A DNA stretch of 64,000 bases from positions 20,036,527 through 20,100,526 of the forward strand of contig NC_089730.1 in NCBI RefSeq assembly GCF_035083965.1, given 5' to 3'. The stretch comes from Branchiostoma lanceolatum. Its lineage: Eukaryota; Chordata; Leptocardii; Amphioxiformes; Branchiostomatidae. This document shows, in pieces, positions 11,448 through 63,753 of the stretch (the stretch's first letter is position 1; each line of letters opens with the position of its first letter). The translations under genes were made by a program, and so were the position numbers. The notes beneath the pieces are model-generated. The model ran no database searches. It saw nothing but the letters and a program-made list of their open reading frames with translations, and was not told where the DNA came from.

Positions 11448-11602
11448 CTTTCGTATTCTAGTGTTACTGATGGAACCGGATTTCAAAGAACTTAGAAATC
11501 ACGTAACATTTGAGAGAAACAGTGCTACAAACAATAACCAAGATGGCGGACAAGCGGCATACAGGTCAGCGGTTAAAAGGTCGAAGGTCATATACCTGAT
11601 TA
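11448..11602 (-). promoter_or_regulatory. ZnfA 5' exon and shared promoter cassette
   Basis: Plus-strand coordinates: exon end/donor 11448; YY1-type ccaagatggcggac 11538-11551; acaggtca shortly after; aaggtca 11584-11590; tacctgatta 11593-11602. The order and spacing match the other 12 genes. Confidence 0.7.
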
Positions 11603-11639
11603 CACCACTGCCAGGTCGCGTCACCGCATATTAGTCAGT

Positions 11640-12399
11640 AATCAGTAATGATTCAGTAATCTATCATTCGTGTCGTTGACCTCATGCAAAGATCTACATT
11701 TCATATAAGTGACTGATCATTCAAAGAATACTTCATCACACAACTATTCAAGACTAAAAAAAGGTTATCTCTTAGTCGCAAAGAATCAGACCGCTTGGTA
11801 TTTCCATAGTGAAGTCAGAGCAACAGTTATGGTCACATACCACATACGAGACGAGCTGTATTAATCAAGTTTCGCCATGAATAAAGTTGTAGAACACATT
11901 TTTATATACTATCAGCACTCCTCACACACGAACTGACAGAAATATCAGTCTCATTGTCGCTGTGTTTGCGTCACAATCAAGACATGCAGGGGAAACGATG
12001 TCAAGTTTTCAACAACTTTATTTAGCCATAACCAAGCTACATCAGACTACCGTTTTAAACAACAATCTTTATGAACACAACATATTTATATGTATTCTTC
12101 TTCTTTCTCTAGATGTGTGTATATGGACAAGGTGCCCGAATTAAATGGAAAAAAAAAACACGTCGACTTTAAACAAACCATGCCTTCAATAAGTTTTCTA
12201 TGCAGTAAACCTTTAAGGTTTGGATAGGTCAGAAGTCGTGGTTGACTTTTACCTGATTATCTAAGCTATAAGCTAGAGACTATATGTATTTTGACTAAAG
12301 AAGTTCATATCTGTAAACGTTCCAAACATTTTGAATGCTGCAATTTTGAACTGTACTGAATGGTTGTCTAGTTAACACGAGAATGTTTATTTCACCATT
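11640..12399 (-). other. ZnfB 3' flank
   Basis: AT-rich, no supported gene. An AATAAA poly(A) signal for the minus strand lies at 12017-12022 (plus TTTATT), in the same local context (aactttattt) as the 3' flanks of other genes in the array. Confidence 0.45.
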
Positions 12400-12715
12400 C
12401 AAAAGTATGTTTATCTTACACATATGTCGGCATAGGGCAGAACTATGAGCTGTCTGAAACATCTCACTTGATTGAGTTTTGATGTGTCCATAGATGGAAG
12501 ACCTATGAGCTGTTCTGTACTCACACTTCTCACAAATGTACGTAGGGCTTCTCACGGTATGTGTAAATATGTGGCCTTCTAATTGTATTTTCTGTGTAAA
12601 CTTGAAGTTACACCCAGTCCCTGGTCACATTTTAAGGTCTTACACCTATATGTTTTCTCATGTGCGTGGACAGGTTAGAGATCAAAGTCGACCCGTGTCC
12701 GCATTATTCACATAT
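12400..12715 (-). pseudogene. Decayed C-terminal fingers of ZnfB
   Basis: After the ZnfB stop the same frame continues as a broken finger (ICE, stop, CGHGSTLISNLSTHMRKH), then further remnants, including YICEKCEYRTAHRSSIYGHI in another frame and AHSSALCRHM. At least three or four fingers have been lost through several stops and frame changes. Confidence 0.8.
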
Positions 12716-14674
12716 TTAGGATTTCTCTCCGGCGTGCATAACAGCCGTGTGTTGTATCAAACCGCGCTTCCGCCTGGCTGAAAAGTCGCACTGGCCACAT
12801 TTGAAAGGCTTTTCGCCTGTATGCTTTGTCATATGCACCAATAGTTCCTTCTTATAAGCCGTCCTGTATCCACATTTTTCACACATGAAGCGTTTCTCAC
12901 GGTTGTGTGACACTATGTGCTTGTTTAACATCCTTTTCGTCACAGTGGAATAGCCGCAATGTTCGCAATTGAAGGGCTTTTCAGCTGTATGTTTTTTCAT
13001 ATGCTGTGTTAGATGAATCTTTTCGGTTGTCACGTACTCACATACCTCACACTCGTACGGTTTCGTGTGTCGAATCAAGTGTTGGTCTAAATGTTTTTTC
13101 TGTGCAGCAGAATAGTCGCACTGGTCACATTTGTAAGGTTTCTCACCGGTGTGTGTTCTCTTGTGCTTATTAAGCGAAGACGTGAAAGCCGTCCTGTATT
13201 CACATTTGTCACAACCGTATTGCTTCTCACCAGTATGTGTAGACATGTGGTCTTGTACATGTCTTTTCTGTGTAGCAGAATAATCGCACAGGTTACACTT
13301 GTAGGGTCTCTCGCCAGTGTGCGTTCTCATGTGGATGACTACACTTTTTTTGTATCTGGCAGAGTAAGAGCACTGGTCGCATTTGTAGCGTCTTTCATCG
13401 GTACGTTTGGACACCGTTGGCCTTTGTTTTTCACCTGTATGCTGCATTCTCACATGTCGTTTTAGGGCGGACTTCCAAGCTGTCCTGTACTCACACTGGC
13501 TACATTGATGTGATTTTTCGCCAGAGTGTGCAACAATATGGAGCGTTAAATGTGAGTTTTGTGTGAAGGCCGAGTCACACAGGTAACACTTGTAGGGTTT
13601 CTCGCCGGTGTGTGTTCTCTTGTGGACGACTAAACTTGCTTTCTGTCTAGCAGAATAGTCACACTGGTCACATTTGTAGGGCCTTGGTTTGGACATGGTT
13701 GACCTGTGTTTTTCATTTGTATGTTGCATTTTCATATGTCGATTTAGAGCAGACTTCCAAGCTGTCCTGTACTCACACTGGCCACATCGGTGTGGCTTTT
13801 CACCAGAGTGTACAGCCATGTGGATCTGTAAATATGAGCTTTGTGTGAAAGACGAGTTACACAGGTGGCATTTGTAGGGTCTTTCGCCCGTATGTCTTCG
13901 CTTATGTTTAGACAGTGCTGAAGGGTAAGGCGCCCTGTATCCGCACTCCCCACACAAGTAGCGGCTGTCACCTGCATGTTCCTCTCTCGTATGTTGAGTT
14001 AGGGCGGACTTGCACGTGGCTACATACGGGCATTCCCCACATTTGTAAGGTTTTTCATCGGCATGAATACTTCGTACATGCTTGGAAAGGGTTGATAAGT
14101 CAGCTACCCTGAATCCGCACTCTCCGCAGACGTAGGCCCTCTGACCTGCATGTTTCCGCGTCATATGTCGAAAAAGGGAGGCCTTCCAAGCTGTCTTGTA
14201 CTGACATTCCCCGCACTGGTAGCGTTTCTCACCCGAGTGCGTGATCATGTGGTCTTGTAAATGTATCTTTTGTCTAAAGGAAGAGTCGCACTGGTCACAT
14301 TTGTAGGGTCTTTCACTTATGTGTATTCTCATATGCAGGGCGAGGGTTGAACGGTAACGCGCCCTGTATCCGCACTCTCCACAGATGTAGGGTTTGTGGA
14401 TCTTGATTACTAAGTTGCACTGACATACAGGAGAAAAGCCACACTTATCGCAGCCACGACTTTTACGATTTGCAGAATCGTCACACCGGTCGCACTTGAA
14501 GGGTTTTTTACTTGTACGTTTGGATTCGTTCATCTCAAGGGTGGAGTTCTCACTACAGGTTTCCTCGCAGAGCGCTCCCCATTCCTCGTCCTGACATTTT
14601 TCTCGACTTGTCTCTTTTCCAGAAATCATGGCAGGTAGGTCTTCCTGGCGATTTTCACAGCTTTCCGCGTCCAT
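12716..14674 (-). CDS. ZnfB, about 21-finger C2H2 zinc-finger protein
   Basis: 652 residues; start at MDAESC, two bases after a gcgcag acceptor. The leader of about 58 residues keeps the family's CEETCSENST core. The first two fingers are damaged: CDRCDDSANRKSRG is cut short and CDKCGFSPVCQCNL is atypical. About 19 good fingers follow. Fingers come in triads (C-D-Q-C-D-Y-S-A, then C-D-S-(S/A)-F-T-Q, then C-G-Q-C-E-Y-R-T-A-W-K-S-A-L) separated by longer linkers such as HRSTMSKPRP, so growth was by three-finger blocks. Closely related to ZnfA. The frame stops at GEKS, at a linker, with decayed fingers beyond. Confidence 0.93.
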   Translation of the reverse strand: MDAESCENRQEDLPAMISGKETSREKCQDEEWGALCEETCSENSTLEMNESKRTSKKPFKCDRCDDSANRKSRGCDKCGFSPVCQCNLVIKIHKPYICGECGYRARYRSTLALHMRIHISERPYKCDQCDSSFRQKIHLQDHMITHSGEKRYQCGECQYKTAWKASLFRHMTRKHAGQRAYVCGECGFRVADLSTLSKHVRSIHADEKPYKCGECPYVATCKSALTQHTREEHAGDSRYLCGECGYRAPYPSALSKHKRRHTGERPYKCHLCNSSFTQSSYLQIHMAVHSGEKPHRCGQCEYRTAWKSALNRHMKMQHTNEKHRSTMSKPRPYKCDQCDYSARQKASLVVHKRTHTGEKPYKCYLCDSAFTQNSHLTLHIVAHSGEKSHQCSQCEYRTAWKSALKRHVRMQHTGEKQRPTVSKRTDERRYKCDQCSYSARYKKSVVIHMRTHTGERPYKCNLCDYSATQKRHVQDHMSTHTGEKQYGCDKCEYRTAFTSSLNKHKRTHTGEKPYKCDQCDYSAAQKKHLDQHLIRHTKPYECEVCEYVTTEKIHLTQHMKKHTAEKPFNCEHCGYSTVTKRMLNKHIVSHNREKRFMCEKCGYRTAYKKELLVHMTKHTGEKPFKCGQCDFSARRKRGLIQHTAVMHAGEKS

Positions 14675-15364
14675 TTCTGCGCACATAACACAAATTCCTA
14701 TGTTTTACTAATGCTTGCCAAACAATTAGATAAAAACTGAAGTTACCAATACTAAAAACATTGTACCACAACGTTGTTAAAATTCAGATCCCCTGACAAA
14801 ATGTACAGGTGGATTCACTCTTGTGTCAAATGAACACTGTATGACATAGTATCTAGAGAGAACAATACGCTGCTGAGTGAGGTTATATGGATTCCGACAA
14901 TCATTCAGCCACGTAAAATAGGAAGGTATCAGTTACTAAAGCAACTGGGTGGATTTTGGAAACGGTCAGGCGTTTCAGGAAGCATCCACAGTCTTTTGTC
15001 ATTTCATTTATTTCTTTTTACCAGTGGATACGCTCAGATCTCAAGCTTAAAGCCCGTTTTTCAGGTTCCCCGGAAAATTATAAAATACACAGATACACAT
15101 AATGGCAGTGATATGGTAACCCTTATGCTAGATGCAAAGCTGGTGAGAGATCCCAACAACTGTTTGGATGCCTGGAATAAATCCTGGCAAACCTCTACAC
15201 CCAGACTAGTTTAATTGTATGGATGACAAAAACTATTCAAGGTCGTTCGATTTGTTATGTGCCCCCCTCCCTCGGACATACGGTGTTCTTTTAAAACACA
15301 TCCCTATTAAAAGCTGCTACAACATTAGCACCCAAGTAGCGCAACGCGATTACAAATGCCCTAC
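14675..15364 (-). other. ZnfB intron 1
   Basis: Non-coding between the acceptor and the donor at 15365 (ACAG followed by gtag). A C-rich block (gcccccctccc, 15261-15271) lies about 94 bp inside the intron from the donor, as in most other array genes. Confidence 0.55.
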
Positions 15365-15518
15365 CTGTTGATATTGACTGCTAGCTAGTTGGTGCGGCGT
15401 TGAAGTTTGTTAGAAATAGCGCCAAATGCAAGATTGTTTTAGTCTCGTGCTGCTCAAAATGGCGAACAAGTTGATTTAGGGTCATCGGGGCAAAGGTCAA
15501 AGTTGACATACCTGATTA
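15365..15518 (-). promoter_or_regulatory. ZnfB 5' exon and shared promoter cassette
   Basis: Exon end 15365; caaaatggcgaac 15455-15467; agggtca; caaaggtcaaag 15491-15502; tacctgatta 15509-15518 (all plus strand). Confidence 0.75.
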
Positions 15519-15529
15519 TTCGAGCTAGA

Positions 15530-16698
15530 GGCCCCAGCTTTTTTTTTATATTAGTGGTTTATTTGAGAAAATACCATGAAACTATCATTCACGGAGTTGA
15601 CGGACATTAGGTTAGTTTCGCAATAGTGAACTTTTTTGTCAAAATACATTATGCCATGGAAATGTTTCATTTTCGATGTTTCTGCACCGTAATCACGTCA
15701 AAAAAACCTAACACACAGAATGTTCTTCAGCAAGTTTATTATGCCATTTACCAGGGTACAAGAAACTACCATTTTGAACAAAATATATATAACTTTTTGA
15801 ATCATAACCACGCCAAAAAAAAAGCCATCCAGACTCAGGAAATTATTTCTTTAAAAGTTTATTTCGCAAGTTACTAGGCTAAAACAAACAAACAACCTAC
15901 AATTAAAATCAGAAGGCAAACAAACAAACATGTTATATTGCTAAGTCAAGAGAGCTACGACAATTATAGAGGTTAACTTTTTTCACTCATTTTTTTCACT
16001 AATATTTTTTCTTGACAATGACAGCTACATAAGAAAATGATAACATAACGAAACTTTAAAAAAAAATTGGTGCAGGTAACTATACAGGATAGGGAACTCC
16101 CTCAAATAGCTCTATTTCTACACTATAGTAATCCTATACAAAAGAAAAAAATACGTCTAAATAATTTTTCTCAAGCAATTTTTTTTGCCATTTACTTGGC
16201 TACAGCAAACAACCATTTGAATCAGGAAACAAACGGAACAATATTATATCCTTAATCTAGGGGGCTACGACAATTCAAGACGTGATTTTTTCACAAATGT
16301 TTTTCTTTTAATGGCAATGATAGCTAAATACAAGAAAAACGAGAAAACAAAAACCAAAGGTAAAAAAAAACCTCATTGATGCAGGTAACTACAAAATAGG
16401 CAATCCACTCAAATATCTCTATTTTTACACTAGAGCTGTTTACAGTGCGCGAAAGTGTCCGTTTACGTAATGGGTCCTCTTGAAATTGGACCGTTACTGT
16501 GTTAGCTGTAATGCAGTTTGATATAAATGGTTTCCCATATTAATGGTTTCCCATAATACTCTTGTATCATGAGTTGATAACAACGCCAAAAAGTAATTCA
16601 CAAACCATGTTTCCCAGCAAGTCTATTTTGCCATTTACCAACCTACAACAATCTAATGTTTTTCGTTGATTACGTTACGTTTTCTTTGTAGCTTGCTT
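15530..16698 (-). repeat. ZnfC 3' flank with degenerate tandem repeats
   Basis: A unit of about 310-320 bp is present twice, at about 15845-16130 and 16165-16440. Both hold tgccattta-like text, gctacgacaatt, gcaggtaacta and ctctattt-tacacta. Shorter related pieces (agcaagt-tatt-tgccatttacca) occur at about 15727 and 16617. Very AT-rich; possible poly(A) signals on the minus strand inside the units (tttatt near 15738 and 15858). No gene. Confidence 0.65.
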
Positions 16699-19600
16699 TT
16701 AAACGTGGACTTGCACGTCATCGTGTCTAGTCAGATGTGTGGCTAGAGAGTTTTTCCGTGAAGCAGAATAGTCACAGTAGTCACATTTGTAGGGTTTCTG
16801 ACTGGCGTGCTTACTAGCCATGTGATGGTTTAGATTGTCTTTCCTTACAGTCGAATAGTTGCAGAAGTCACACTTGTGTGGCCTGTCTCCACTGTGAATT
16901 TTCATATACTTGGACAGGTAAGCCTTACTTCTTGTCTTGAACGGGCACTCTTCACACGCGAAGCGTTTCCCGCGCGAGTGTACGAAGCTATGGTTGTATA
17001 GAGTACTTTTAAGTGCAGTAGAAAAGTCGCACTGGTCACATTTGAAGGGTTTTTCTCCTGTATGCGTTCTCATGTGTCCGGCGAGGAAACGCTTAGTAGT
17101 CGTCCTGTGTCCGCATTCCCCACACATGTAGGGCTTCTCACCGGTGTGCTTGAGCATGTGTTCGTCTAAATTACTCCTCCATGCAGCTGAAAAATCACAA
17201 TGTTTACACTTGTGGGGCTTCTCACCGGTGTGTACGAGCCTGTGCTGTTTAAGATTCCCTTCGTATACTGTAGAGTAGTCACACATGTCACACACGTAAG
17301 GTTTCTCACCAGTGTGTTTGTGCGCGTGTAAGTCTAAACTCCGTTTCTCAGCAGCTGAATAATCGCACTTACCACACTTGTAAGGCTTTGAGTGAATTCT
17401 CAAATGTCTGGTTAGGCTAGACCTTCTAGTCGTCCTGTACCCACACTCTCCACACGTGAAGGGTTTCTTACCTTCATGTTCGAGCAAGTGAATGTCTAAA
17501 GTCTTTTTTCGTGCAGCTTTGAACTCGCACTGGTCACACTTGTAACGTTTTTCCTCAGCGTGGATGTTCGTGTGTAGGAATAGGGATGTGACGTCAGCCG
17601 CCATGTAATCGCACTCGCCACACATGTAGGGTTTCTCAGTTGTTGTGTGCTTCACCGCGTGCTGATCTAAATCAGTTTTCGTTGTAGCTGAATACTCGCA
17701 ATGATCACATGTGTACGTTTTTTCACCAGTGTGTTCTTTCATATGCTGACGAAGGGATGAGCTCCGGATCGACCGATATCCGCACTCCCCACACAGGTAG
17801 GGTTTGTCACTATGATGTTTGATCTTGTGAATATCCAACTGGCTTTTGCTCCAAGCTGAATAGTCGCACTGGTCACATTTGTGGGGTATCCTACCTGTAT
17901 GTTTTCTCATATGCACGAATAGGTGAGGCTTGTAAGCCGCTCTGAACCCGCATTCCCCACATATGTAGGGGGTTTTACGAGTGTGCTCTTTCATATGCTT
18001 TGATAGGAAGTACTTATTAGCTGCTCTGTATCCACACTTCTCGCAAACGTACTTCGACTCCACGGTGTGACCTTCCTCCTGCCCGTCCACCTGTCCCGTA
18101 CGGGCCTGCACGAGTGGGTGTTGTACATGTGGGGTCTCTTCGACGAACCGGGTGCTGTTTAGGCCCCTCGTTTCCCCACTTACAATTTCAGGATCCTTGC
18201 TCTCTTGTAACTGTGGCTCTAGGACTGTTGTGTTGTCCTTCGCGTCATTTAGTCCGTTTCCTAGATGCTCGTTAGGATATTCCTGAACTTCTTCTTCATT
18301 GTGTTTAGCCAAATGTTTGGTTAATAAGTTTTTCCGTGAAGCAGAGTAGTCACAGAAGTTACATTTATAGGGTTTCTGGCCGGCGTGCCTATTAGCCATG
18401 TGTTGGTTTAGATTGTCTTTCCTTGCAGTCGAATAGTCGCAGAAGTCACACTTGTACGGCCTGGCTCCACTATGTACTGCCATATGTCGAATCAGACGAG
18501 CCTTTGTAATCGTCTTGTATTCGCACTCTTCACACACGAAGCGTTTACGGCCCGTGTGTCTCAATCTGTGTATATATAGGCTACTTTCACCTGCAGCAGA
18601 AAAGTCGCACTGGTCACATTTGAAGGGTTTTTCACCAGTGTGCGTCCTCATATGTCTTGCCAGGAGACGCTTGTTAGTCGTTCTGTGTCCGCATTCCCCA
18701 CACATGAAGGGCTTCTCACCGGTGTGCTTGAGCATGTGTTTGTCTAGATTACTCCTCGACGCTGATGAAAAGTCACAATGTTTACACTTGTGGGGCTTCT
18801 CACCGGAATGTGTGAACTTGTGCTGTTTAAGATTCCCTTCGCATATTGTAGAGTAGTCACACATATCACACCCGTAAGGTTTCTCGCCAGTATGTTTGAG
18901 CGCGTGTAAGTCTAAACTCCTTTTCATTGCAGCTGAATAATCGCACTTATCACACTTGTAAGGCTTTGAGTGAATTCTCAAATGTCTGGATAGTCTATCC
19001 CTCACAGTCGTCCTGTACCCACACTCCCTACACTTGTAGGGTTTCTCGCCAGTGTGTGTGAGCATGTGACGGTCTAACCTGCTTCTCCGTATAGCTGCAT
19101 AGTCGCACTGGTCACACTTGTAACGTTTTTTCACGGCGTGGATTTTCATGTGTTGGGATAAAGACGACCCGTCAGCTGTCCTGAACCCGCAGTCCCCACA
19201 CATGTACGGATTCTCACTGGCGTGCTTACCCATGCGTTGATCCAAACCTTTTCTTGTTGAAGCTGAATACTCACAGTGATCAGATTTGTAAGGTTTTTCT
19301 CCCATGTGTATTGTCGCATGTTGGAATAGATCAGACATCTGCGTCGCCTTGTACCCGCACTCCCCACACGCGTAGGGATTGTCACGGTTATGTTTCTTCT
19401 TGTGCAGATCGAGACTGCTTCTGTGTGCAGCTGAATAGTCGCACTGGTCACATTTGAAAGGTTTTTCTCCGGTGTGTTTTCTCATATGTGTAACTAGAGA
19501 TGATCTTATAGCCGCCCTGTATCCGCACTCCCCACACATGTAGGGTTTCCCACCGGTGTGTCTAAGCATGTGCTGGTCTAGACACGTTTTATGAGCTGAA

Positions 19601-20187
19601 GAAAAGTCGCAGTGGTTACATTTGTAGGGTTTTTCACCTGTATGTTTTCGCATATGTCGGGATAGGTTGGCCATTATAGCCGCCCTGTAGCCACACTCTC
19701 CACACACGTAAGGTTTTTTACCAGTGTGCCTAATCTTGTGCGATATCAGACCGCTTTTCGAGGATGTCGAAAAGTCACACTGATCACAGCTGTACGGCTT
19801 TTTACCTGTGTGTTGTATTTTATGTTTGGATAGGTTTGAACTGTAAGCCGTCCTGTACCCGCACTCCCAACAGGTGTAGGGCTTCTCACCTGTGTGCTTT
19901 TTCATATGTCTGGATAGGTAACGCTTGTGAGTTGTCCTGTATCCACATTCCTCACAAACGTAGGTTGAGCCCACGGTGTGGTCTTCTCCATGCTTGTTCA
20001 TCTTCCTCGTACGGGTCCGTACATGTGGTGGTAGTGTGGCCTCTCCGCCCCTTGAGATGCTGTTCGCATCTGTCGTTTCCGCAAATACAATTTCTTTATC
20101 CTCTTTCTCCTGTGTCCATTTGCCTGTGGTCTGGTTCTTTGTGACGTCATTTCCGTCTCCGGGCATTTCTTCAACGGACGGATCCAT
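16699..20187 (-). CDS. ZnfC, 36-finger C2H2 protein formed by an internal duplication
   Basis: 1162 residues; start at MDPSVEE, two bases after a ttcctag acceptor. Leader 1 (about 1-75) is followed by fingers 1-20 (to about 632), then a second leader (about 633-708: NEHLGNGLNDAKDN, KDPEIVSGETRG, GHTVESK) and fingers 21-36. The two halves align: leader 1 ends GHTVGST-YVCEECGYRT... where leader 2 ends GHTVESK-YVCEKCGYRA, and finger order matches over long stretches. Finger 9 (YKSDHCEYSA, and R for the first His) and finger 34 (Y for the first His) have lost metal ligands. Expected role: sequence-specific DNA binding in the nucleus. Confidence 0.94.
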   Translation of the reverse strand: MDPSVEEMPGDGNDVTKNQTTGKWTQEKEDKEIVFAETTDANSISRGGEATLPPHVRTRTRKMNKHGEDHTVGSTYVCEECGYRTTHKRYLSRHMKKHTGEKPYTCWECGYRTAYSSNLSKHKIQHTGKKPYSCDQCDFSTSSKSGLISHKIRHTGKKPYVCGECGYRAAIMANLSRHMRKHTGEKPYKCNHCDFSSAHKTCLDQHMLRHTGGKPYMCGECGYRAAIRSSLVTHMRKHTGEKPFKCDQCDYSAAHRSSLDLHKKKHNRDNPYACGECGYKATQMSDLFQHATIHMGEKPYKSDHCEYSASTRKGLDQRMGKHASENPYMCGDCGFRTADGSSLSQHMKIHAVKKRYKCDQCDYAAIRRSRLDRHMLTHTGEKPYKCRECGYRTTVRDRLSRHLRIHSKPYKCDKCDYSAAMKRSLDLHALKHTGEKPYGCDMCDYSTICEGNLKQHKFTHSGEKPHKCKHCDFSSASRSNLDKHMLKHTGEKPFMCGECGHRTTNKRLLARHMRTHTGEKPFKCDQCDFSAAGESSLYIHRLRHTGRKRFVCEECEYKTITKARLIRHMAVHSGARPYKCDFCDYSTARKDNLNQHMANRHAGQKPYKCNFCDYSASRKNLLTKHLAKHNEEEVQEYPNEHLGNGLNDAKDNTTVLEPQLQESKDPEIVSGETRGLNSTRFVEETPHVQHPLVQARTGQVDGQEEGHTVESKYVCEKCGYRAANKYFLSKHMKEHTRKTPYICGECGFRAAYKPHLFVHMRKHTGRIPHKCDQCDYSAWSKSQLDIHKIKHHSDKPYLCGECGYRSIRSSSLRQHMKEHTGEKTYTCDHCEYSATTKTDLDQHAVKHTTTEKPYMCGECDYMAADVTSLFLHTNIHAEEKRYKCDQCEFKAARKKTLDIHLLEHEGKKPFTCGECGYRTTRRSSLTRHLRIHSKPYKCGKCDYSAAEKRSLDLHAHKHTGEKPYVCDMCDYSTVYEGNLKQHRLVHTGEKPHKCKHCDFSAAWRSNLDEHMLKHTGEKPYMCGECGHRTTTKRFLAGHMRTHTGEKPFKCDQCDFSTALKSTLYNHSFVHSRGKRFACEECPFKTRSKAYLSKYMKIHSGDRPHKCDFCNYSTVRKDNLNHHMASKHASQKPYKCDYCDYSASRKNSLATHLTRHDDVQVHV

Positions 20188-21525
20188 TTCTAGGAACTGT
20201 TGAAAAATACCAAGACCATTATCGTGGAGTGCCATGTCGTTTCCGGATTTGTGAATATGCATTTTCCGTTCCATGACAAATAACAAATGTTCACATTACA
20301 ATTCCCAACAAGTAGACTAAAAATGGGAAACACGGACTTCTCATTTATTTGCGTCTAGTAGATGCTTCTGCTGACAAATACATTTAGAAACTAGCCTCCG
20401 TTGCAGGCTCTGAACCGGCTTTTTGGGGGACTAAATAATACACTTTTTGCAGCCAGCCCGTAACTATCAGCCAACCCTGTAACTATCAGCCTCTAGCCGG
20501 CTGATAGTTACAGGGTTGGCTGATAGTTACGGGCTGGCTGCAAAAAGTGTATTATTTAGTCCCCCAAAAAGCCGGTTCAGAGCCTGCAACGGAGGCTATT
20601 TAGAAACTGTGATTATGAAGATGATAATAAAGCTGGGTTCTTTACGCCAATCAAGATAACATAATAATCAAAGACATCAAAGGACAGGAGTGGGGGCAAA
20701 GGGATTCATTTTTGGGATAGGTGCACCGATGTCCGAAAAGCAGTGTGTTTAGCACTGAGTGCGCCTACCCTGTATAAAGAAAACAGAAATAAATAAATAA
20801 ATATAAAATTTTAGGTGTACAACATGAAAAACGGGAATATCAGCAACGCTGCATGCGTGTAGTGACCCTCCCCAATACAGGTATTAGTGGTAGGCCCCTA
20901 GTTGGAGGTCAGAGAGAGCACAAGGATTATTTGAGTTACACCAGGAGAGAGTTAACAGTGAGGCGTGCGTGTGTGGACCCTCGTGGACTTTGTACATTTA
21001 AAGGATTGATTCTACACCATCGGGCTCTTGGCAATATCTTTGAAGAGAACCTCTTAACAAGCAAAACCAATTGCAAATAACACAGTTTCTACCTCTCTTC
21101 AGAGCTTGAATCGTAAATTTTGAAGCTAACTTCAAAGTCTTAAATAATATAACGATTTATCATTTTCACTTTTCTGTATACAGGTGGGTACATGAATAGC
21201 CCTACACAAATATCAAGGTGCACTGCTCCCACAGTAAAAAAAAAATAGGTGCACAGCTGCAATTTTGGGTGCACAAAAGTGCTTATTACAGTTACAAATT
21301 GCTACATGTTGGCTAATCATATCCAGCCTTATCCAAAGTCTTTCTGGTCACTTCTGGCTGCTTGTCTTCAAAACGTTACATAATGAAATTTACAGTACCC
21401 CCCCTCCCTCCACCCTTGAACGGGACCATTGGTATTGGCGTTCTCCCAAAACACACCCCTGGTTCGAAGCTGTTACAACATATTAGCACAGCCCAAACAG
21501 CTTTTCCCGACAACAAAGGTCTTAC
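20188..21525 (-). other. ZnfC intron 1
   Basis: Contains the foldback element at 20392-20598 and a C-rich block (taccccccctccctccaccc, 21397-21416) about 110 bp from the donor at 21526. No gene seen; small open frames here have no family features. Confidence 0.55.
20392..20598. mobile_element. 207-bp foldback MITE with a 9-bp target site duplication
   Basis: Two arms of 100 bp are exact reverse complements around a 7-bp loop (tctagcc). Flanks are direct repeats tttagaaac (20383-20391 and 20599-20607). Inside each arm a 17-bp motif (gtaactatcagccaacc-type) is repeated. Long terminal inverted repeats with a 9-bp duplication fit a non-autonomous Mutator-like element; no transposase is encoded. 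Perfect arms point to a recent insertion. Confidence 0.88.
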
Positions 21526-25666: not shown

Positions 25667-25679
25667 CACAACTCTAGTC

Positions 25680-51381: not shown

Positions 51382-51389
51382 CCCCACTG

Positions 51390-53906: not shown

Positions 53907-53996
53907 TTCCGTATCGAATGTCACGCTACTATCCGGGTCTTGTCCATGTTGCCCAGTTGGCAGAACAGTTGGAATTTCGGGGCGTCTCTCGTCTAT

Positions 53997-54642: not shown

Positions 54643-54808
54643 CCCCACTGAAACCTTTAACTGTATGTTATCTGTGTTTCTTGTGGTACAACTGTCTGTG
54701 TTACTTATGTCATAATCCGCTTCTAGTCTTAATCTTTCTATATCTATGAGCATACTTTGATGAAGTAATGTTGATGGTTTCATGTTTGGGTAGAATGGGC
54801 CCCCTTAA

Positions 54809-56162
54809 CCCTCAAACCACCGTATGGGGTCAAAACTGACCTCAGGCGTATATCAAGATGTGCCATTTTGACATTTCGAGTCGAAAACAAAATTCCTTCT
54901 ATGAGTTTGTTTGTATATATGTCTTATAACTTCTCACAAGTTTTTACCGAGATTGGCTCATTGTTGATTAAGTTATTCTAGAAAGTTTACGCATGGTCCA
55001 GTGGGCTCAAAACTGACCCCAGCAAAATCTGCACTCATATTCCCTATTCTTTGATACTTGTCATCCAGTATCATGTATGATAAGGGTTATCATGATCATA
55101 GTTACAAAATATGATTTTGTAGAAACGTGAAAAAAACAAATTTTTCAAATGAACGTAAATATTAATGACGTTGCGACGTATTATGACGTCATTTATGTGA
55201 CTTTATTGACGAAAACAAACAAATTGGGTATTTCCATATAATTCAAAGGTACACGATAAAACTTAAGTAGAAATTATGTATGATAAATCATGATATATCC
55301 AAAGACGTTATTTGTAGATGGCAACAGGAACGACGTCAAAATGACGTCATAAAAATCATTTTCATATCAAGTTACACTAGCGAAATCCGCCATCTTGGTT
55401 CCGCCATCTTGAATTATTTCAAATGCATTTTTTCATCATATAACCTTATAACACAATAAAAATGGATCAAAGCGTTTATATTAAGATTGTTTCTGTTTGA
55501 ATAAACATGGTAATGATAAAATTTGAGGTTGAAATAGCCGGTTATAGCTAATCTTATTATATCGTCCGCCATCTTTGATTTTGACCGGTGACGTAATCAA
55601 ATATATGCATAAATTATGACTATTAAATCAAAAAAGTGATAGTGAATTAATTTGGTTGGTATTGATGTCAGAAAATAAGTGCAGTTTAAAAAGACAGCCC
55701 TAGAATTACATTGTAAAATCCAAAAGTAGCGACTTTTTCCAAATATGGCGCTAAGAAGGCGGTTGCCATAGCAACATGAAAACCTTGATTAGTTATTTCA
55801 TTCATTTAAAATTGTTGCCAACAAAATTTTAGCAAAGGTGACCAAGTTTGGTTGTTCTAGAGTAAGACATTCAGATGCTATATGACATCAAGTGTTGGTG
55901 CAGGCCTCAAAAGAGCCCACTTGTCTGAATAGCGTTAGTTGCAAAAGACGATGTTCCCTATTTTTGCATAAATCATCATAATGAACAGAAATTATTCACA
56001 CCTATTCATGTCAAACTGTCCCTTATAGATTACTTAAACTATACATATATACAAGCCACAAAAATAGTCACCAATAAAGCTATATTTGTAGAAAACATTG
56101 TGGGGTCAGTTTTGACCCCATACGGTAAGATTAGTCGTAAAAAAGCTACGGTGGTTTGAGGG
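54809..56162. mobile_element. 1354-bp piggyBac-type non-autonomous element
   Basis: Flanked by TTAA on both sides (54805-54808 and 56163-56166). Ends are inverted repeats CCCTCAAACCACCGTA. A second inverted pair (ccgtatggggtcaaaactga) lies at 54820 on the left and about 56104-56125 on the right, offset by about 30 bp. AT-rich interior without a transposase frame. TTAA target and CCC-type ends are the piggyBac hallmark. The paralogous place upstream of ZnfJ (near 51625) lacks it. Confidence 0.87.
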
Positions 56163-56166
56163 TTAA

Positions 56167-57214
56167 AAGAAAAACTCGTCAGAATTGAATGGGGCCAACA
56201 ATATGTCTGAAATCTTGATTATCAGAAACATAACCTAATATCTAGGCTTGTTAAGGTAGTTATTTTGCACTAGATTTACAACAATATTATAACAAAACTG
56301 TGCTTTCAAGTAGCTTTATTTCGATAATCGTATGAGTGATAACATGTGGAACAAATACGAGTTAACTATTTCATATAAGTTTCTATTAAATGAGACAAGT
56401 CATGGTGTAACTAAAGAAAGAGGAAAACAAAATATTGTACACGATAGCATCTTGATCTCAAGCAAGACTAGCTGTGATGCAGAAACTAAATTGTTGTGTA
56501 TTTACATCGACAAATGTTGTCCGATTAAAACATTGATCGAACTTCAGAGCTATCTAGTCCTAAAACTACGTGCCTGATCTTATATTATACAATAGTTTAG
56601 GTAGACATAAAAGGAAGAATATTAACTCTTGGTACCTTGAAACATACAATCCTTGAAGCAAAATTAGCTGAACAATTGCGGATTACTTCTAACAGTGTAA
56701 GTGATAGTGATATATTTAGTGAAAATGACTGCAAGTGAAATAACGTGATAATTGTGAAAGATAAATAACTTTGCTACAGTGCAAGTGAAATGACTCTATA
56801 ACAGTGCTAGTGGTCTTGAAATGACTTTGTAGTTATTTTGTTTCCTGCCCATCTGTCTGTCCTCTACAAGACTGTTCTCACCTTACGCACGCCGAATCCC
56901 TACAATCTTTAACTACTTTCTTGTATATCTGTCCCGTGTAAGACTGATTCCCACAATTGCTCTAGCCTATCACCCCGTAGCCGCACTTGGCACAAATGTG
57001 CAGTTCTTTTGGAGTGTGTTTGATAATGTGCTAAATTAACTCTGTTGAGCCTAGGGTTTGTCAACTATATGCGTTCTTCCGTACAAGTCAGACTTCCGTT
57101 TTCACAAGAAATGAACATGTGGAGTATCTGACATGTACGGGTTGCGGTGAGCTATGGTCTTGAGTTCCCATGCAAAGAATAAGTCATGGTTTTATCATCT
57201 TTAAACTTGCTGTC
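56167..57214 (-). other. ZnfL 3' flank
   Basis: A minus-strand AATAAA lies at 56315-56320. The stretch is homologous to the ZnfK 3' flank. Around 56960-57020 the minus strand still reads HIIKHTPKELHICAKCGYG, an old finger remnant. No intact gene. Confidence 0.6.
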
Positions 57215-57385
57215 AGATACGTGTCCTGAAATGGCAATATGTTTGTTTAAATCACCTTTGGTTGTGGCGGAATAGTAACACTTGTCACATTTGAAGGGTT
57301 TCTCCCCGCTATGTGTCATAACATGCCTATCTAAGGATGTCTTTTTAGTAGTTTTGTACCCGCATTCCCAAAGAATGTATCATTC
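57215..57385 (-). pseudogene. Two in-frame fingers beyond the ZnfL stop
   Basis: After the TAG (57386-57388) and a TGA (57380-57382), the same frame reads YILWECGYKTTKKTSLDRH, then FKCDKCYYSATTKGDLNKH and the tail ISGHVSDSKF. The tail matches the intact ZnfM end (VSGHVTDSTA). The first remnant has lost a Cys (I-L-W); the second is complete up to its first His. Confidence 0.85.
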
Positions 57386-58840
57386 CTAATCAGTGTGTCT
57401 CTTCATATGTCTGGAATGTTCAAACTTGTGGGACGTTCTGTAATCACATATTTCACACGCGAAGGGTTTCTCACCGGTATGTGTGAACATGTGTCGCTCA
57501 AGATTACCCTTCCGTGCAGCAGAGTAGTCGCACTTGTCACATTTGTACGGTTTCTCGCCAGTATGTGTTCTCATGTGTGAACGTAAGCTGGCGAGCTGAG
57601 TAGTCGAATACCCACACTGGCCGCACATGTAGGGCTTTTCTCCAGTGTGATGTGCTAGATGGCTGGTTAAACTGCGCTTCTGAGCTGCAGAATAGTCGCA
57701 CTGGTCACACTTGTAGGGTTTTTCACCTGTATGTGTCGTCATGTGCCGAGATAGCGAAATCTTTTGAGCAGCCCGGTAGCCGCACTCACCACACATGTAG
57801 GGTTTTTCTCCATCGTGGTTACGCAAGTGTCGGTTCAAATTAGATTTTGTGGTAGCAGAAAAGTCGCACTGGTCACATTTGTAGGGTTTCTCACCGGTAT
57901 GGATTCGCATATGAACGGTAAGGTAAGCCTTGTAATTCGTCTTGTATCCGCACTCTCCACACGTGTAAGATTCTTCTCCGGTGTGTTTAGCCATGTGTTG
58001 TTCTAATGTGTCTTTCCGTGCAGCAGAGTACTTGCAATGTCCACATTTGTGAGGTTTTTCACCTGTATGTGTTCTCATGTGTGTCGTTAGGCGACACCTG
58101 TCAGCCGTTCCGAATCCACACTCTTTACACGTGTACGGTTTGTCAACTTTCTCTCCCGTGTGTTTAGCTACGTGTCGTTGTAAAGTGATTTTTTGGGCGG
58201 CAGAATAGTCGCAATGACTACATTTATAGGGTTTCTCACCTGTATGTTTTCTTATATGACTGAACAGATGAGACCTGTTAGCCGTCTTGTATCCGCAGTC
58301 CTCACACGTGTAGGGTTTCTCACCACTGTGCTTAAAGAAGTGGCGGGCTAAAAGGTCTTTATCTGGAGCGCAATACCCACACTGGTCGCATTTGTACTTT
58401 TCGCCGGTATGTTTTCTCATATGTTTGTATAAATTAAACTTGCTAGCTGTCCTGAATCCACAGTAATCGCACATGTAGGGTTTTTCTCCGGTGTGTTTAG
58501 TCATATGTCGGTCTAAGTTGCCTTTCTTTGCAGCGGAGTAGTCGCACTGGTCACATTCATATGTCTTCTCACCTGTATGTTTTCTGTTGTGTCTTATCAG
58601 GTCAGCCTTTGAGGTTGTCTTATAGTCACACTCCATACACGGGAAGCGTTTGTCCGCAGTACGTTTCACTACAAGCCTGTCCATCTGCTCTGTTCGACCC
58701 TGTACGGGAGGATGGTCAGATTTTACCCCGCCCTTTTCCTCGTATTGGCCGCCCTCTTCACTGTCCTTCTGCCTTCCAGTGTTTACGTTCTCGCTGCTGT
58801 TTGTCTCGTTCCCAGGGTGTTTAGTTGGCAGATCGTCCAT
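57386..58840 (-). CDS. ZnfL, 15-finger C2H2 protein with lost ancestral start and early stop
   Basis: 484 residues from MDDLPTKHPGNETNSSENVN. The ancestral start, two bases after the ctaag acceptor (58865-58867), reads ATA (IDERSGEVS), so the next in-frame ATG nine codons on is the likely start; ZnfG has the same internal S-M-D-D-L after its first Met. The leader includes NTGRQKD, GGVKSDHPPVQGRTEQ and VKRTADKRF. Fifteen fingers; the linker after finger 6 is lengthened (GEKVDKP) and the one after finger 3 shortened. Finger 15 ends HTD at a TAG, after which two former fingers remain. Fingers 11-15 are nearly the same as fingers 10-14 of ZnfM. Confidence 0.93.
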   Translation of the reverse strand: MDDLPTKHPGNETNSSENVNTGRQKDSEEGGQYEEKGGVKSDHPPVQGRTEQMDRLVVKRTADKRFPCMECDYKTTSKADLIRHNRKHTGEKTYECDQCDYSAAKKGNLDRHMTKHTGEKPYMCDYCGFRTASKFNLYKHMRKHTGEKYKCDQCGYCAPDKDLLARHFFKHSGEKPYTCEDCGYKTANRSHLFSHIRKHTGEKPYKCSHCDYSAAQKITLQRHVAKHTGEKVDKPYTCKECGFGTADRCRLTTHMRTHTGEKPHKCGHCKYSAARKDTLEQHMAKHTGEESYTCGECGYKTNYKAYLTVHMRIHTGEKPYKCDQCDFSATTKSNLNRHLRNHDGEKPYMCGECGYRAAQKISLSRHMTTHTGEKPYKCDQCDYSAAQKRSLTSHLAHHTGEKPYMCGQCGYSTTQLASLRSHMRTHTGEKPYKCDKCDYSAARKGNLERHMFTHTGEKPFACEICDYRTSHKFEHSRHMKRHTD

Positions 58841-59375
58841 GGATACCTCGCCGCTTCTCTCGTCTATTTCTTAGACAACCAAAACAAGTGTCAAAACTGA
58901 TTATAAATTATACTATACTGTATACATTTCCAGACAATCCATGCCCATCTGCTTTTCCTAGAACAGACTTACAGCATGTGCTCTTATTCCCAGAAAGGCA
59001 AAATAACCAGAGCAAGCTCATGTGTATTCAGACTAGGTTGTTTAAAAAAAAAACACTGGCTTTGGAATGCCAAATCATGGTATACAGGATTGCATCAGAA
59101 GTGTAGATTTTAGCTTAGCTTCCAGTCAGATTAGAAAGCACTGAACTTTCCTTTAATCTTAACAAATACGATAACAAAGCAAAAACACATATACGAACAT
59201 TTGCTGAGGTTTAATGTATGCTCCATGCCCTCGAAACGCTTACACCCGCCATGCCCCCCTCCCCAGGCAAAGCCAGTGTGCAAATTATCCTTCTCAAATT
59301 AGTGTATGTTATGCTCTTGTTTTGCTGTCGAATAGGAATAAATAAGGGAACGCTGGTAACTAACAATGATCTTAC
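58841..59375 (-). other. ZnfL intron 1
   Basis: No gene. C-rich block atgcccccctccccaggc (59251-59268), about 110 bp from the donor at 59376. Confidence 0.55.
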
Positions 59376-59538
59376 CTGCGTGGTTATGCTGCTGTACGAT
59401 CGATAAGGCGTTGATTGGTTTCACAGTCGTCTTTACATATGGAGAAATGATATTCCGTCGCAGGTCAAAATGGCGGACAGGCGCAGTCACAGGTCAGTGC
59501 AGCCGGAGGTGAAAGGTCAAAAACCATATACCTGATTA
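59376..59538 (-). promoter_or_regulatory. ZnfL 5' exon and shared promoter cassette
   Basis: Exon end 59376; caaaatggcggac 59466-59478; cacaggtca; gaaaggtcaaa at about 59511-59521; tacctgatta 59529-59538. Confidence 0.77.
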
Positions 59539-61489
59539 TCACTGTAAAACCAGAAACGTTCGAATATGTAGCATGAAAGCCTCACTCACTGCCCGTTTCA
59601 TTCTGTAAACATGTGGATTTTCCCTGCTCATATCGAACCGCAAAACTACATACAGCAACACAACAAATGAGTCCACTTTCTTTGAACTATACACAAGGCT
59701 TGATGTCAAGATTAGTTCGCACTCACCATGTCTTACAAGCTTCCAACCAAGGAAGGAAATCATAGGACAAACACATTATATCACACACTTACTACTCTAT
59801 TGAACCATCTAAAATTGTATTTGCTTCATTAACATATCTATTCAGAGCTTTCGTATAAAACCTATTTCTGCCAGATCTTTCATTAGTCACTGACGAAAGA
59901 TAGCGGATACTCTCTGACACGTCTGACTGTTTCGAAATTTCATCCAGATGCGTGAGTTGACTATTTTTGGCGTAAACACATTATGTTTCTTTTTTATATC
60001 TCAACTTTACAGCAGAGAAACGGTGATCCAACTTTCTAGTGTTTGATGTGCTTTCAACTAAAGAAAATCGGTGTCCATCTAGTATGAAAAGGCCGCTAAT
60101 AAGAAACAAATTTGAATATATTTTTAAGGTCTTCCCTAAACAAACATGATTCAAGTGTTTGGATAGGTCAAAATTATCAGCTCTCTTGACTTGAGGTGTA
60201 TCTTTTTCCGAGCAGCAGAAGTCAATTGTGAGCTAGTCATATTTGTGCTCTTTTGCACAATTGGGTTCGTTCATATGGTGCCTGATTGATACGGCATTTG
60301 GATGCGCAAAAATCTCCGAAGTTTTAGAGAAATATTACTTCTTCAGATCAAATATAATTGTTAAGATTAATGAAATGTTGGATTTCGCATTTTTTTTACA
60401 CTAGTCATATTTTCATTTGGCACAATTCCCTACATATAGACCAGCCAGCGATTCTACAACGTAAGCGCCTCATATTTGATATCAATCAACGCATTCAGGT
60501 GAAATACAATCAGAGCTGCAGCAAAATGTGGCCCTCGTGCCATTTTCGAGAACCAAGCATTACACCAATTTCAAACGTTTTCAATAAATAGGAATTGACT
60601 CTTTCAATTACCTCTCTTTTAATACTAGTTTGTCTACATGTATGTCTCGGAGTGAGTGAGTGAGTGAGTGAGTGAGTGAGGCAAAAGGTAAGCAATTTAA
60701 AAAAAAGACAATATAATGTGTAAGATAGCTATTACATTCTAAACCAAGAGGAGCAATAATACAAAAAACTACAAAAAACATCTTCAAATCGAAGAATGTT
60801 GGTTGATAAAGACATGAATACGATTTGAATATGGTAGTACAGTCATAACAATATATGATACAGTGACTTTCAAAAAAAGAAGAAACCTGTGGCTAAATTG
60901 AACTAGGCACTTTCCAGGCAACCTTTACTAAGAAAGTGCAAGTTAAACGAATATGTAACAGTGCAAACGAAATAACCTTTAAACAGTGCTAGTTATCATA
61001 AAATAACTTTGTTACAGTACATTCAAGTGAAACGAATGTGTAAAAAAAGACGACAAAACATTACTACTGCTATTAATACTAGAAAAGGCACGATAAACAC
61101 TACAAGTATACAACAAATATGTTCACAAATCGATTGGCATCATACCTTATAATTGACCTCTTCATATTGACCTTAAATTGACCCATTGTAGGTCTAATAA
61201 AGGTAGTTTTCCGTGAGGTAGGAACATCAACAAGCAACAGATAACAGAGATTGCAGCATTATTCTATGAGTTCTTTTAACTTGCTTTTTCTTGATGTAGA
61301 ATTATGAGAATACAATCAGTCAGCTAGCACAGGGTTATCAGTTATAACATTTGTATACTAGTATATGTTATCATTTGCTGATGGTAAACAATGCAACAAA
61401 ACTAGTGTCCATACGCGGGGCGAATCCCTACAATGCTTTTAAATTTGTCACTTTCTTGTCCATCGATCCTGTACAAGACTGTTGTTCCC
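59539..61489 (-). other. ZnfM 3' flank
   Basis: AT-rich, no supported gene. A (GAGT)n microsatellite at about 60652-60680. Stretches such as acagtgcaa and gaaataac-ttt repeat in the manner of the 3' flanks of ZnfK and ZnfL. Confidence 0.4.
60650..60681. repeat. (GAGT)n microsatellite
   Basis: About seven gagt units in tandem. Confidence 0.9.
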
Positions 61490-61660
61490 ACCATTGCTCA
61501 GGCCTGCCGTCTGTCCTGCAGCCACACTCCACACCCGTGTACAGGAGTGTGCTTTTAATTGCCTTTGGCGGGTTGATTTTCGTTGAGTCATAAAGGTCAC
61601 ATTAATGGTAAACATGGGCTTTCTCATCTGCATGCCATCTCTGTTGTTTTGCAAGTGGTG
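61490..61660 (-). pseudogene. Decayed finger remnant 3' of ZnfM
   Basis: The minus strand at about 61495-61560 reads LLYTGVECGCRTDGRP, a worn finger start in the same style. It is beyond the shared C-terminal tail, so it is an older loss than the ones in ZnfL. Confidence 0.5.
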
Positions 61661-61666
61661 AGCTAA

Positions 61667-63280
61667 TCAGTTTCTATGTTGCGGAATTGTCATTGTTTTT
61701 TTTTTTTCAGCCGTGCTGTCAGTTACGTGTCCCGAAACAGCTATGTGTTTCTTTAAAGTGGCTCTCGATACGGCTGAAAAGTAACACTGTTCACATTTGA
61801 AAGGTTTCTCCCCAGTATGTGTCATCATATGCGCAGTTAAGGAAGACCTATTAGTCGTTTTGTACCCGCATTCCCAACAAATGTATCGTTCCTCACCAGT
61901 GTGTCTCTTCATATGAAGTGAAAGTACAAACTTGTCAGACGTTCTATAGTCACATGTGTCGCACGCGAAGGGTTTCTCACCGGTGTGTGTGAACATGTGT
62001 CGATCTAAATTGCCCTTCAGTGCGGCAGAGTAGTCGCACTGGTCACATTTGTAGGGTTTCTCACCGGTATGTGTTCTCATGTGTGAACGTAAGCTAGCGA
62101 GCTGAGTTGTCGAATACCCACACTGGCCGCACATGTAGGGCTTTTCTCCAGTGTGCTGTGCTAGATGGCTAACTAAATTGCGCTTTTCAGCTGCGGAATA
62201 TTCGCAGTGGTCACATTTGTAGGGTTTTTCGCCTGTATGTGTTCTCATATGCCGAGACAGTGTGTTCTTTTGAGTCGCCCGGTACCCACACTCTCCACAA
62301 ATGTAGGGTTTTTCTCCAGAATGTTTGCGCACGTGTCGACTTAAGTGACTTTTTTCGGTAAACGAATAGTCACACTGGTCACATTTGTAGGGTTTCTCGC
62401 CGCGATGTCTCCGCATATGACCGGTTAGGCTGGACCGGTCAGCCGTCCTATATTCGCACTCTCCACACGTATACGGTTTTTCGCCAGTGTGTTTTAGCAA
62501 GTGTTGTTTCAAACTTTTTTTCCACGCTGTGGAATAGTCGCACTGGTCACATTTGTAGAGTTTTTCATCTGTGTGTTTTATCATATGTCCGGAAAGGCGA
62601 GACCTGACCGCCGTTCTGTATCCACACTCTCCACACATGAAGGGTTTTTCTCCGGTGTGCTTAGTCATATGGCGGTCTAAACTGCGTTTCTGTGCAGCAG
62701 AATAGTCACACTGGTCACACGCATAAGGTTTCTCACCTGTATGCTTTCTCAGATGGAGGTCTAAACTGCCCTTTCGTGCAGCAGAATAATCGCACTGGTC
62801 ACACGCATAAGGTTTCTCATCTGAATGCTTTCTCATATGGTGGTCTAAACTGTCCTTCCGTGCAGCAGAATAATCGCACTGGTCACATGTATAGGGTTTT
62901 TCACCTGTATGTTTTCTCACATGGCGGTCCAAACTACCCTTAAGTGCAGCAGAATAATCGCACCGGTCACACGTATAGGGTTTTTCACCTGTATGTTTTC
63001 TGATATGTCTCGATAGGACAGTCCTATCAGCTGATCGATAGTCACACTCCGAACACGCAAAGCGTTTATCCGCAGTACGTTTCACTGCTACCCTGCCCGC
63101 GGCCGTCTGCTCTGCTCGAGCCTGTACAGTACTAGTAGGATGGTCATATTTTACCCCGCACGGTTCCTCGCATGGAATGCCCTCTTCCTTGTTTTGCTGC
63201 CTCCCCATGTCTAATGTCTCACTGCTGTTTGGGTCTTTTACATGTTGCACAGTTGGAATCTCGGAGCGTACCTTGTCCAT
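61667..63280 (-). CDS. ZnfM, 16-finger C2H2 zinc-finger protein
   Basis: 537 residues; start at MDKVRSEIPTVQHVKD, two bases after a ttcacag acceptor. The leader of about 73 residues has DMGRQQNKEEGIPCEEPCGV and VKRTADKRF. Sixteen fingers. Fingers 2-5 are a fresh tandem array of the C-D-Q-C-D-Y-S-A-A type, repeated every 84 bp, so the alternation with the C-G-E-C-G-Y-R-T type is lost there. The last finger has a wider His spacing (HIAVSGH) and is followed by the basic tail EKKKTMTIPQHRN. This is the most complete C-terminus in the array. Confidence 0.95.
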   Translation of the reverse strand: MDKVRSEIPTVQHVKDPNSSETLDMGRQQNKEEGIPCEEPCGVKYDHPTSTVQARAEQTAAGRVAVKRTADKRFACSECDYRSADRTVLSRHIRKHTGEKPYTCDRCDYSAALKGSLDRHVRKHTGEKPYTCDQCDYSAARKDSLDHHMRKHSDEKPYACDQCDYSAARKGSLDLHLRKHTGEKPYACDQCDYSAAQKRSLDRHMTKHTGEKPFMCGECGYRTAVRSRLSGHMIKHTDEKLYKCDQCDYSTAWKKSLKQHLLKHTGEKPYTCGECEYRTADRSSLTGHMRRHRGEKPYKCDQCDYSFTEKSHLSRHVRKHSGEKPYICGECGYRATQKNTLSRHMRTHTGEKPYKCDHCEYSAAEKRNLVSHLAQHTGEKPYMCGQCGYSTTQLASLRSHMRTHTGEKPYKCDQCDYSAALKGNLDRHMFTHTGEKPFACDTCDYRTSDKFVLSLHMKRHTGEERYICWECGYKTTNRSSLTAHMMTHTGEKPFKCEQCYFSAVSRATLKKHIAVSGHVTDSTAEKKKTMTIPQHRN

Positions 63281-63591
63281 GTCTGTGAACAATAAATAAT
63301 CTGACATTGACAATGGAAAAGAAAACAGTTCCGATACCCACATCATTTCCGGTCAGAAAGCAAGGCCGTAGTAGATTACTATTATTACCAATGTAAAGGT
63401 GGGAAAATGAAAACAAAATATTTTTACAAGCCCTTTACTGCGCATCGGCTCTCTACTTCATGACCTCCTTTCTTCATGCCCCCCTCCCCCATTCCGAGTC
63501 GATGTACGATTGACCCCAAATACTCTTGTAGAGGTTGTTATCATATTTTCCTGTCGTTTAAGTACATTTCGATAACTAACAGAGGTATTAC
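63281..63591 (-). other. ZnfM intron 1
   Basis: Short intron with C-rich block tgcccccctcccccattcc (63477-63495), 97 bp from the donor at 63592. Confidence 0.6.
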
Positions 63592-63753
63592 CTGTGTGGT
63601 GGTTTTGCTGATGGGTCGACAAAGCGTTCAATCGCTAGAAAATCGGCTTAGGTTTCGATAAATGATCTTCCTGTCGCTGGTCGAAATGGCGGGAAAGCGC
63701 AATCGGGGTCAGCACTTCCGGTACGGCAAGGTCAAAGTGTACATACCTGATTA
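63592..63753 (-). promoter_or_regulatory. ZnfM 5' exon and shared promoter cassette
   Basis: Exon end 63592; tcgaaatggcggga 63681-63694; ggggtca; aaggtcaaag 63728-63737; tacctgatta 63744-63753. Confidence 0.76.

Follow-up and report, generated by a model that had tools for sequence, protein, structure and literature searches.

A candidate TATA-less YY1-DR1 promoter cassette upstream of 13 tandem zinc-finger genes in the lancelet Branchiostoma lanceolatum

Does each member of a tandem zinc-finger gene array carry the same promoter, and if so, was it kept by selection or does it merely reflect recent duplication? This question is raised by a 64,000-nt stretch of the genome of the lancelet Branchiostoma lanceolatum (contig NC_089730.1, forward-strand positions 20,036,527 to 20,100,526; here called the window), in which 13 open frames of 350 to 1259 codons each form a tandem row on the minus strand. 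By a simple pattern count, they contain 6 to 34 regular C2H2 fingers per frame. A first-pass annotation, made from the sequence alone, had claimed that one cassette of ordered motifs precedes every gene and that its conservation suggests selection. We found that nearly the same composite of three motifs indeed lies upstream of all 13 genes, and its sites very probably function as a promoter, retained as the family multiplied. In the reading that we consider likely, the cassette is a compact, TATA-less promoter of the YY1-initiator type, positioned before a noncoding exon of each array gene.

Read on the sense strand, the order in the 13 genes (numbered by map position) is motif A (TAATCAGGTA), 4 nt, motif B (AACTTTGACCTTT), a gap of variable length, motif Y (TGTCCGCCATTTTG), and a splice donor. 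Motif A scored 10 of 10 in seven genes, 9 in two, 8 in one, and 7 in two (the scores of 7 to 8 belonging to genes 6, 8, and 9), and 5 in gene 3; the word TACCTGATTA was exact in 7/13 genes and had one mismatch in 2/13. Motif B scored 9 to 13 of 13 in every gene, and AAGGTCAAAG, which is part of B, was present with at most one mismatch in 10/13. The YY1-type core AANATGGCGG, predicted upstream of each gene, was indeed found there, exact in nine cassettes and with one mismatch in the other four. Beyond each core lies the predicted 5' exon donor, with donor word scores of 9 to 11 of 11 in 13/13; its distance, previously given as 70 to 100 bp, was 81 to 110 nt when measured from the start of the Y core. 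The A-B gap is 4 nt in 12/13 genes and 5 nt in gene 3, in which A is degenerate. Together, A and B make up a rigid unit of 27 bp, whereas the B-Y spacing varies: it is 25 to 27 nt in genes 1 to 4 and 34 to 36 nt in genes 5 to 13. Because of these two gap lengths, the array has two forms of the putative promoter, in map order. The annotated spacing of about 20 bp applies to genes 5 to 13, while it is 8 to 9 bp shorter in genes 1 to 4. The claimed fixed order in 13 of 13 copies held for three of four motifs in position, order, and strand, but not for the fourth, a separate half-site C (RGGTCA; TGACC on the sense strand), which was exact in only 9/13 genes and read TGACT in gene 10. Half-site C is optional.

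In the first-pass annotation, AAGGTCAAAG was listed as a lone half-site. Instead, it is one half of a direct repeat of AGGTCA-type half-sites spaced 1 nt apart (DR1), which makes up motif B. The strong half matched at least 5 of 6 positions in 13/13 genes. The second half reached at least 5/6 at exactly 1-nt spacing in 8/13 genes, compared to 0.9% of window positions, and 2 to 4 of 6 in genes 6, 9, 11, 12, and 13. At each of 23 other offsets from -12 to +12, a second half-site was found in 0/13, the strong half-site itself excepted. We also considered B as a monomer site (NR5A, ERR, or ROR kind) but set this reading aside, since the 5' extension does not fit. For Y, the available text of a lancelet paper (PMC7481187) gives the JASPAR YY1 form as CGCCATNTT. 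Among the papers listed by a literature text search with TAATCAGGTA or its complement, the matches look like unrelated sequences, judging by titles and the starts of abstracts.

No TATA-like TATAWA was detected within 60 bp upstream of Y (0/13). Between -100 and +10 relative to the Y core, 12/13 genes had none, and a single one was located at -85 in gene 2. The ratio of observed to expected CpG dinucleotides was 1.17 in the 100 bp from Y, compared to 0.65 to 0.99 in 15 other bins; this signal is weak and is not relied on, since every core contributes its own CpG.

The YY1 core AANATGGCGG had 32 matches in the window versus 9.15 expected, and 0/100 shuffles equaled that number; AAGGTCAAAG had 16 matches versus 5.75 expected. 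TACCTGATTA alone was weak against chance (12 matches in the window, 4.96 expected, as many in 1/100 shuffles). A lone TACCTGATTA at 12250 lies outside the top composite positions listed and is regarded as a chance occurrence. We then scored the A-B-Y composite on both strands of the window, excluding from the model the copy under test. The 13 cassettes scored 32.1 to 54.8, versus 29.1 to 30.6 for the best other position. With the full model, the cassettes ranked 1 to 13 (42.2 to 57.1), and the next nine positions listed (25.5 to 29.6) were all at most 12 bases from a cassette core. This composite scan revealed no further A-B-Y cassette elsewhere in the 64 kb on either strand, and therefore the cassette is associated with each gene, as had been proposed. 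Furthermore, a model trained on genes 5 to 13 recovered the cassettes of genes 1 to 4, and reverse training recovered those of genes 5 to 13. In this held-out test, 13/13 cassettes were the best site of their own noncoding segment, and all 13 scores exceeded the best of 200 dinucleotide shuffles of that segment.

An unguided count of 10- and 11-mers common to the 13 noncoding segments, with one mismatch allowed, was compared to eight shuffles, the maxima of which were 9 to 10 segments at length 10 and 6 to 8 at length 11. Y words (12/13), donor words (up to 12), and DR1 words (up to 11) were above these maxima, and so were G- and T-rich runs. One scan of viral contigs for AATCAGGTA-gap-ACTTTGACC yielded three matches with gaps of 9, 9, and 7, none with the usual cassette gap of 5; they were taken as chance.

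Since motif order is inherited by duplication, order alone proves nothing, and the informative part is the contrast between motifs and flanks. If recent tandem duplication alone accounted for the cassette, the copies would be young and the motifs would agree without selection. All genes are tandem paralogues, and in some pairs, including 6/9, 10/11, and 10/13, the similarity extends beyond the motifs. Over all 78 gene pairs, the mean identity of the 37 motif bases was 81%. In 28/78 pairs, all five flanks and spacers tested (two upstream stretches, spacer, exon, and intron start) were at chance (z<3), with aligned flanks at 49 to 54% identity, which is the gapped chance level; yet the motif bases of these pairs were 82% identical. 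In the 58 more distant pairs, ungapped identity was 75% for A, 77% for B, and 85% for Y (positions -3 to +10). At the edge of Y, it fell from 100% at +10 to 34% at +11, and it was 26% over +11 to +30 and 25% over bases 31 to 59 after the Y start. The 4-nt A-B gap was 40% identical, and bases 20 to 46 upstream of A were 24% identical. The chance-level flanks of the 28 pairs and the abrupt edge of Y both argue against duplication alone, which we regard as very improbable. Flanks conserved like the motifs, previously named as the mark of duplication alone, were not found. Because much flanking sequence is at chance right beside the motifs, the view that purifying selection acts on them, as suggested earlier, is supported.

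The best local alignment per pair was determined in 600-bp regions, that of gene 13 being cut by the window end. A match with an expectation value (E) of at most 1 was obtained for 68/78 pairs, and 10 were without a match. In 29 of the 68 alignments, the match was confined to -80 to +25 of Y, some with weak E values of up to 0.25. The alignments were centered on the cassette: at E of at most 0.01, 50 to 52 pairs covered each tested position from -40 to +10, while coverage was 47 at -50, 31 at -60, 9 at -80, and 29 at +20. A second, weaker conserved island surrounds the donor and reaches ~39 bases into the exon and ~13 bases into the intron.

Several points weigh against a conserved promoter common to all 13 genes. 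The second DR1 half is poor in genes 6, 9, and 12 (2 to 3 of 6). In gene 3, A is essentially lost (5 of 10) and the composite is weak, with the smallest leave-out margin (32.1 versus 30.5). Half-site C in its usual form is absent from genes 3, 4, and 7, gene 7 having a reversed one. In the unguided count, TAATCAGGTA words occurred in 8/13 segments at length 11, a number matched in 2/8 shuffles. The blocks were picked after they looked conserved, and the held-out and local-alignment tests remove this circularity only partly. It was also our choice to set 20/78 pairs aside as close in the ungapped comparison. In the remaining 58 pairs, the 20 bases directly upstream of A were 35% identical, and the splice-donor region was ~40% identical, both above chance; moreover, ~30 pairs align on through the exon and the intron start. 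The 35% identity suggests that A may extend slightly beyond the word given in the annotation. Given the conservation upstream of A, at the donor, and through exon and intron, not all of it can be promoter motif. Furthermore, since the gene copies are related, they amount to fewer than 13 independent observations. Finally, the motif names are our assumption: we take Y to be a YY1 site and B to be a nuclear-receptor DR1.

The cassette could also be an ordinary housekeeping-type YY1 promoter that serves many genes and is not specific to the array, a proposal that overlaps with ours. It would fit the absence of a TATA box and the YY1 motifs mapped at ubiquitous lancelet promoters, as far as described in the available text of PMC6292497. 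However, a YY1 site is far less specific than an A-DR1 unit whose gap is fixed at 4 nt, and the oxidoreductase-like gene at the left end of the window has no cassette; this gene is a single non-finger control whose promoter was not located, which limits our own reading as well. We consider the housekeeping-type promoter possible but doubtful. Much less room remains for a conserved RNA or splicing element, in which case the true start would be upstream, the cassette would be transcribed, and TAATCAG/GTA would resemble a donor. CAGGTA is indeed donor-like, and conservation at exon and intron positions keeps register with the true donor. However, the bases after the "donor" in A are poorly kept (the 40% identity of the gap), genes 6, 8, and 9 lack the GT, and B and Y read as a DR1 and a YY1 site, which are DNA-binding sites. 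An RNA-level role is thus quite improbable.

An origin of the cassette as a transposable-element promoter that multiplied with the genes seems unlikely, too. The ends of the lancelet ProtoRAG element carry YY1 sites according to the available text of PMC7481187, and a likely terminal inverted repeat element in the window has three YY1-like sites. In contrast, our search for inverted repeats (at least 18 nt, up to 2500 nt apart) gave 40 pairs, and none of the 25 longest was shared by several cassettes. Among these 25, two AT-rich imperfect pairs enclose the cassettes of genes 9 and 12. An old transposon origin with decayed ends would be compatible with the repeat search.

According to the promoter reading that we prefer, YY1 on CCGCCATTTTG would position initiation at or beside its site, corresponding to an initiator-type use. 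A nuclear receptor that binds DR1 (HNF4, RXR, or COUP-TF kind) and a factor on TAATCAGGTA would share the rigid 27-bp unit, which would set activity from 25 to 36 bp upstream. Splicing would then join the short noncoding first exon to the coding exon, using an acceptor adjoining the start codon. We infer the promoter role, the start position, the binding proteins, and co-expression from the sequence, and coordinated control of the array genes is plausible. The A-B unit could be recognized by a pair of cooperating proteins or by a single protein with a long footprint. As a long shot, A-B could be one long footprint of a many-fingered protein, possibly encoded by the family itself; the array would then be self-regulating, new copies would be born under family control, and the promoter would act as a lineage-specific addressing tag.

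Parts of this arrangement are known from other systems. The P5 promoter of adeno-associated virus has a YY1 initiator, the site of which sets the start point, and in the clustered protocadherin genes, which also form a tandem array, every gene is preceded by one conserved element. There, variable exons are joined by splicing to constant exons that the genes share, whereas each gene of the lancelet array has its own long finger-coding exon. In human LINE-1, an intact YY1 motif controls initiation and its site sets the start (PMC11602158, available text); the array promoter would add a conserved upstream DR1 unit, and its start is predicted from sequence. Marletaz et al. 2018 (PMC6292497) reported YY1 motifs around ubiquitous lancelet promoters and compared promoters with and without them. 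The YY1 motif is common to those promoters and the array promoters, the latter lacking a TATA box, while the A-DR1 composite belongs to the array only, as far as described in the available parts of that paper. Wells et al. 2023 (PMC10547256, citing Hadzhiev et al.) state in the accessible text that zebrafish FiNZ-type finger genes share a promoter architecture; in the lancelet array, too, one architecture extends across many family members. In the zebrafish sharp-peak class, a TATA box is clearly present (PMC10547256), whereas the lancelet array has none and carries YY1 and DR1 sites. For the finger genes on zebrafish chromosome 4, coordinated expression was described (PMC5690287, in the text available); the accessible portions of PMC10695386 and PMC6370886, which are about promoters on this chromosome and about early transcription, mention no YY1 cassette. 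Promoters of human chromosome 19 finger genes were scanned for motifs including YY1, and most tested motifs were present (PMC3039671). These finger genes are clustered, too, but the available text of that study does not mention a single ordered cassette.

Among the papers listed by our searches of the open-licence literature, none reported an A-DR1-YY1 composite or a shared promoter of lancelet finger genes; as evidence that no such report exists, this is weak. YY1 at lancelet promoters and shared promoter architecture in finger-gene families are already in print; new here are the reading of B as DR1, the rigid 27-bp A-B unit, and the absence of a TATA box. Finger families expand by duplication, and the cassette bears on how new copies stay regulated. 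A composite this clear can be scanned for genome-wide and compared to start-site maps, asking whether a family has a promoter code of its own. In addition, the array offers 13 natural variants of one promoter in two spacing classes for dissection.

All cassettes are on the minus strand and are listed here from the last base of the 5' exon (first number) to the outer end of A. The short class comprises gene 1 (11448..11602; A 11593-11602, B 11576-11588, Y core 11540-11549), gene 2 (15365..15518; A 15509-15518, Y core 15456-15465), gene 3 (21526..21674; degenerate A, 5/10, 21665-21674, B 21647-21659, Y core 21610-21619), and gene 4 (25511..25666; A 25657-25666, Y core 25605-25614, without half-site C). 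To the long class belong gene 5 (30067..30221; A 30212-30221, Y core 30150-30159), gene 6 (33222..33386; A 33377-33386, 8/10, Y core 33314-33323), gene 7 (37675..37843; A 37834-37843, Y core 37773-37782, without C in the usual orientation), gene 8 (41936..42085; A 42076-42085, 7/10, Y core 42013-42022), gene 9 (45937..46080; A 46071-46080, 7/10, Y core 46009-46018), gene 10 (51209..51381; A 51372-51381, Y core 51310-51319), gene 11 (54471..54642; A 54633-54642, Y core 54572-54581), gene 12 (59376..59538; A 59529-59538, Y core 59467-59476), and gene 13 (63592..63753; A 63744-63753, Y core 63683-63692). When genes 10 and 11 were compared, the alignment stopped ~75 bp upstream of Y and restarted ~91 bp further in gene 10, as if gene 10 had acquired DNA, or gene 11 had lost it, right at the 5' cassette edge (~51395-51485).

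The coding exons with C2H2 fingers span 7356..63352 on the minus strand. The open frames are at 7356-11135, 12716-14704, 16699-20295, and 23023-24807 (genes 1 to 4), at 26737-28668, 32020-33072, 34292-37294, 39581-41401, and 44233-45594 (genes 5 to 9), and at 48115-49938, 52716-54104, 57386-58870, and 61667-63352 (genes 10 to 13). Pfam analysis of 4/13 proteins returned finger families and, above the cut-off, a few other names (GST_C_5, C1_2, and DUF2399), the matches to which fall within finger stretches. No KRAB or comparable N-terminal domain was detected in these four proteins. By eye, many genes have in common an acidic N-terminal stretch (MDERSSE...DELP..HPGNET...) at the start of the coding exon, e.g., at 32991, 45549, and 37045 (minus strand), without a Pfam match in the four proteins scanned.

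The acceptor together with the start codon reads AGAAATGG in 9/13 genes, AGACATGG in gene 13, and AGAAATAATGG in gene 4, while genes 11 and 12 have AGAAATAG, in which the start is lost. In these two genes, ATA replaces the start ATG after the acceptor (codons at ~53996 and ~58867, minus strand); both retain the cassette, long open frames, and later in-frame ATGs. Gene 4 has an ATA at the start position, too, but an ATG comes immediately after it. The same gene (23023-24807) has only six regular fingers, the first ~384 residues from the start, preceded by a long region with 114-bp tandem repeats. This may reflect decay or a finger gene that is becoming something else.

A G-tract resembling GGGGGAGGGGGGCATAAC (the gene 6 word) was observed in 7/13 introns with at least 13/18 positions matching. 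It is on the sense strand, 94 to 135 nt into the introns of genes 2, 4, 6, 9, 11, 12, and 13 (e.g., at 33117, 54366, and 63490), and the opposite strand has no comparable run at these places. The tract is looser in gene 3, and in gene 10 it is located at 607 nt. It could be a splicing enhancer or a further promoter site.

Scans of the window with Rfam (gathering threshold) and for tRNAs gave no matches. Upstream of the gene 11 cassette, a 1.36-kb segment (54805-56166) is probably a DNA transposon: its 20-nt outer inverted repeats are perfect, and it contains three exact AAGATGGCGG sites; from its TTAA and CCCT ends, we presume that it is of the piggyBac type. A 112-nt inverted repeat with 96% complementarity and a 7-nt loop (20380-20610) lies between the frame and the cassette of gene 3. 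At the left end, minus-strand pieces of the oxidoreductase-like gene occupy 1772-5101; of three pieces scanned, one has a match to Pfam ADH_zinc_N, and we take the gene to be quinone-oxidoreductase-like. A 136-bp unit repeated 2.9 times (3813-4205) includes part of its coding sequence.

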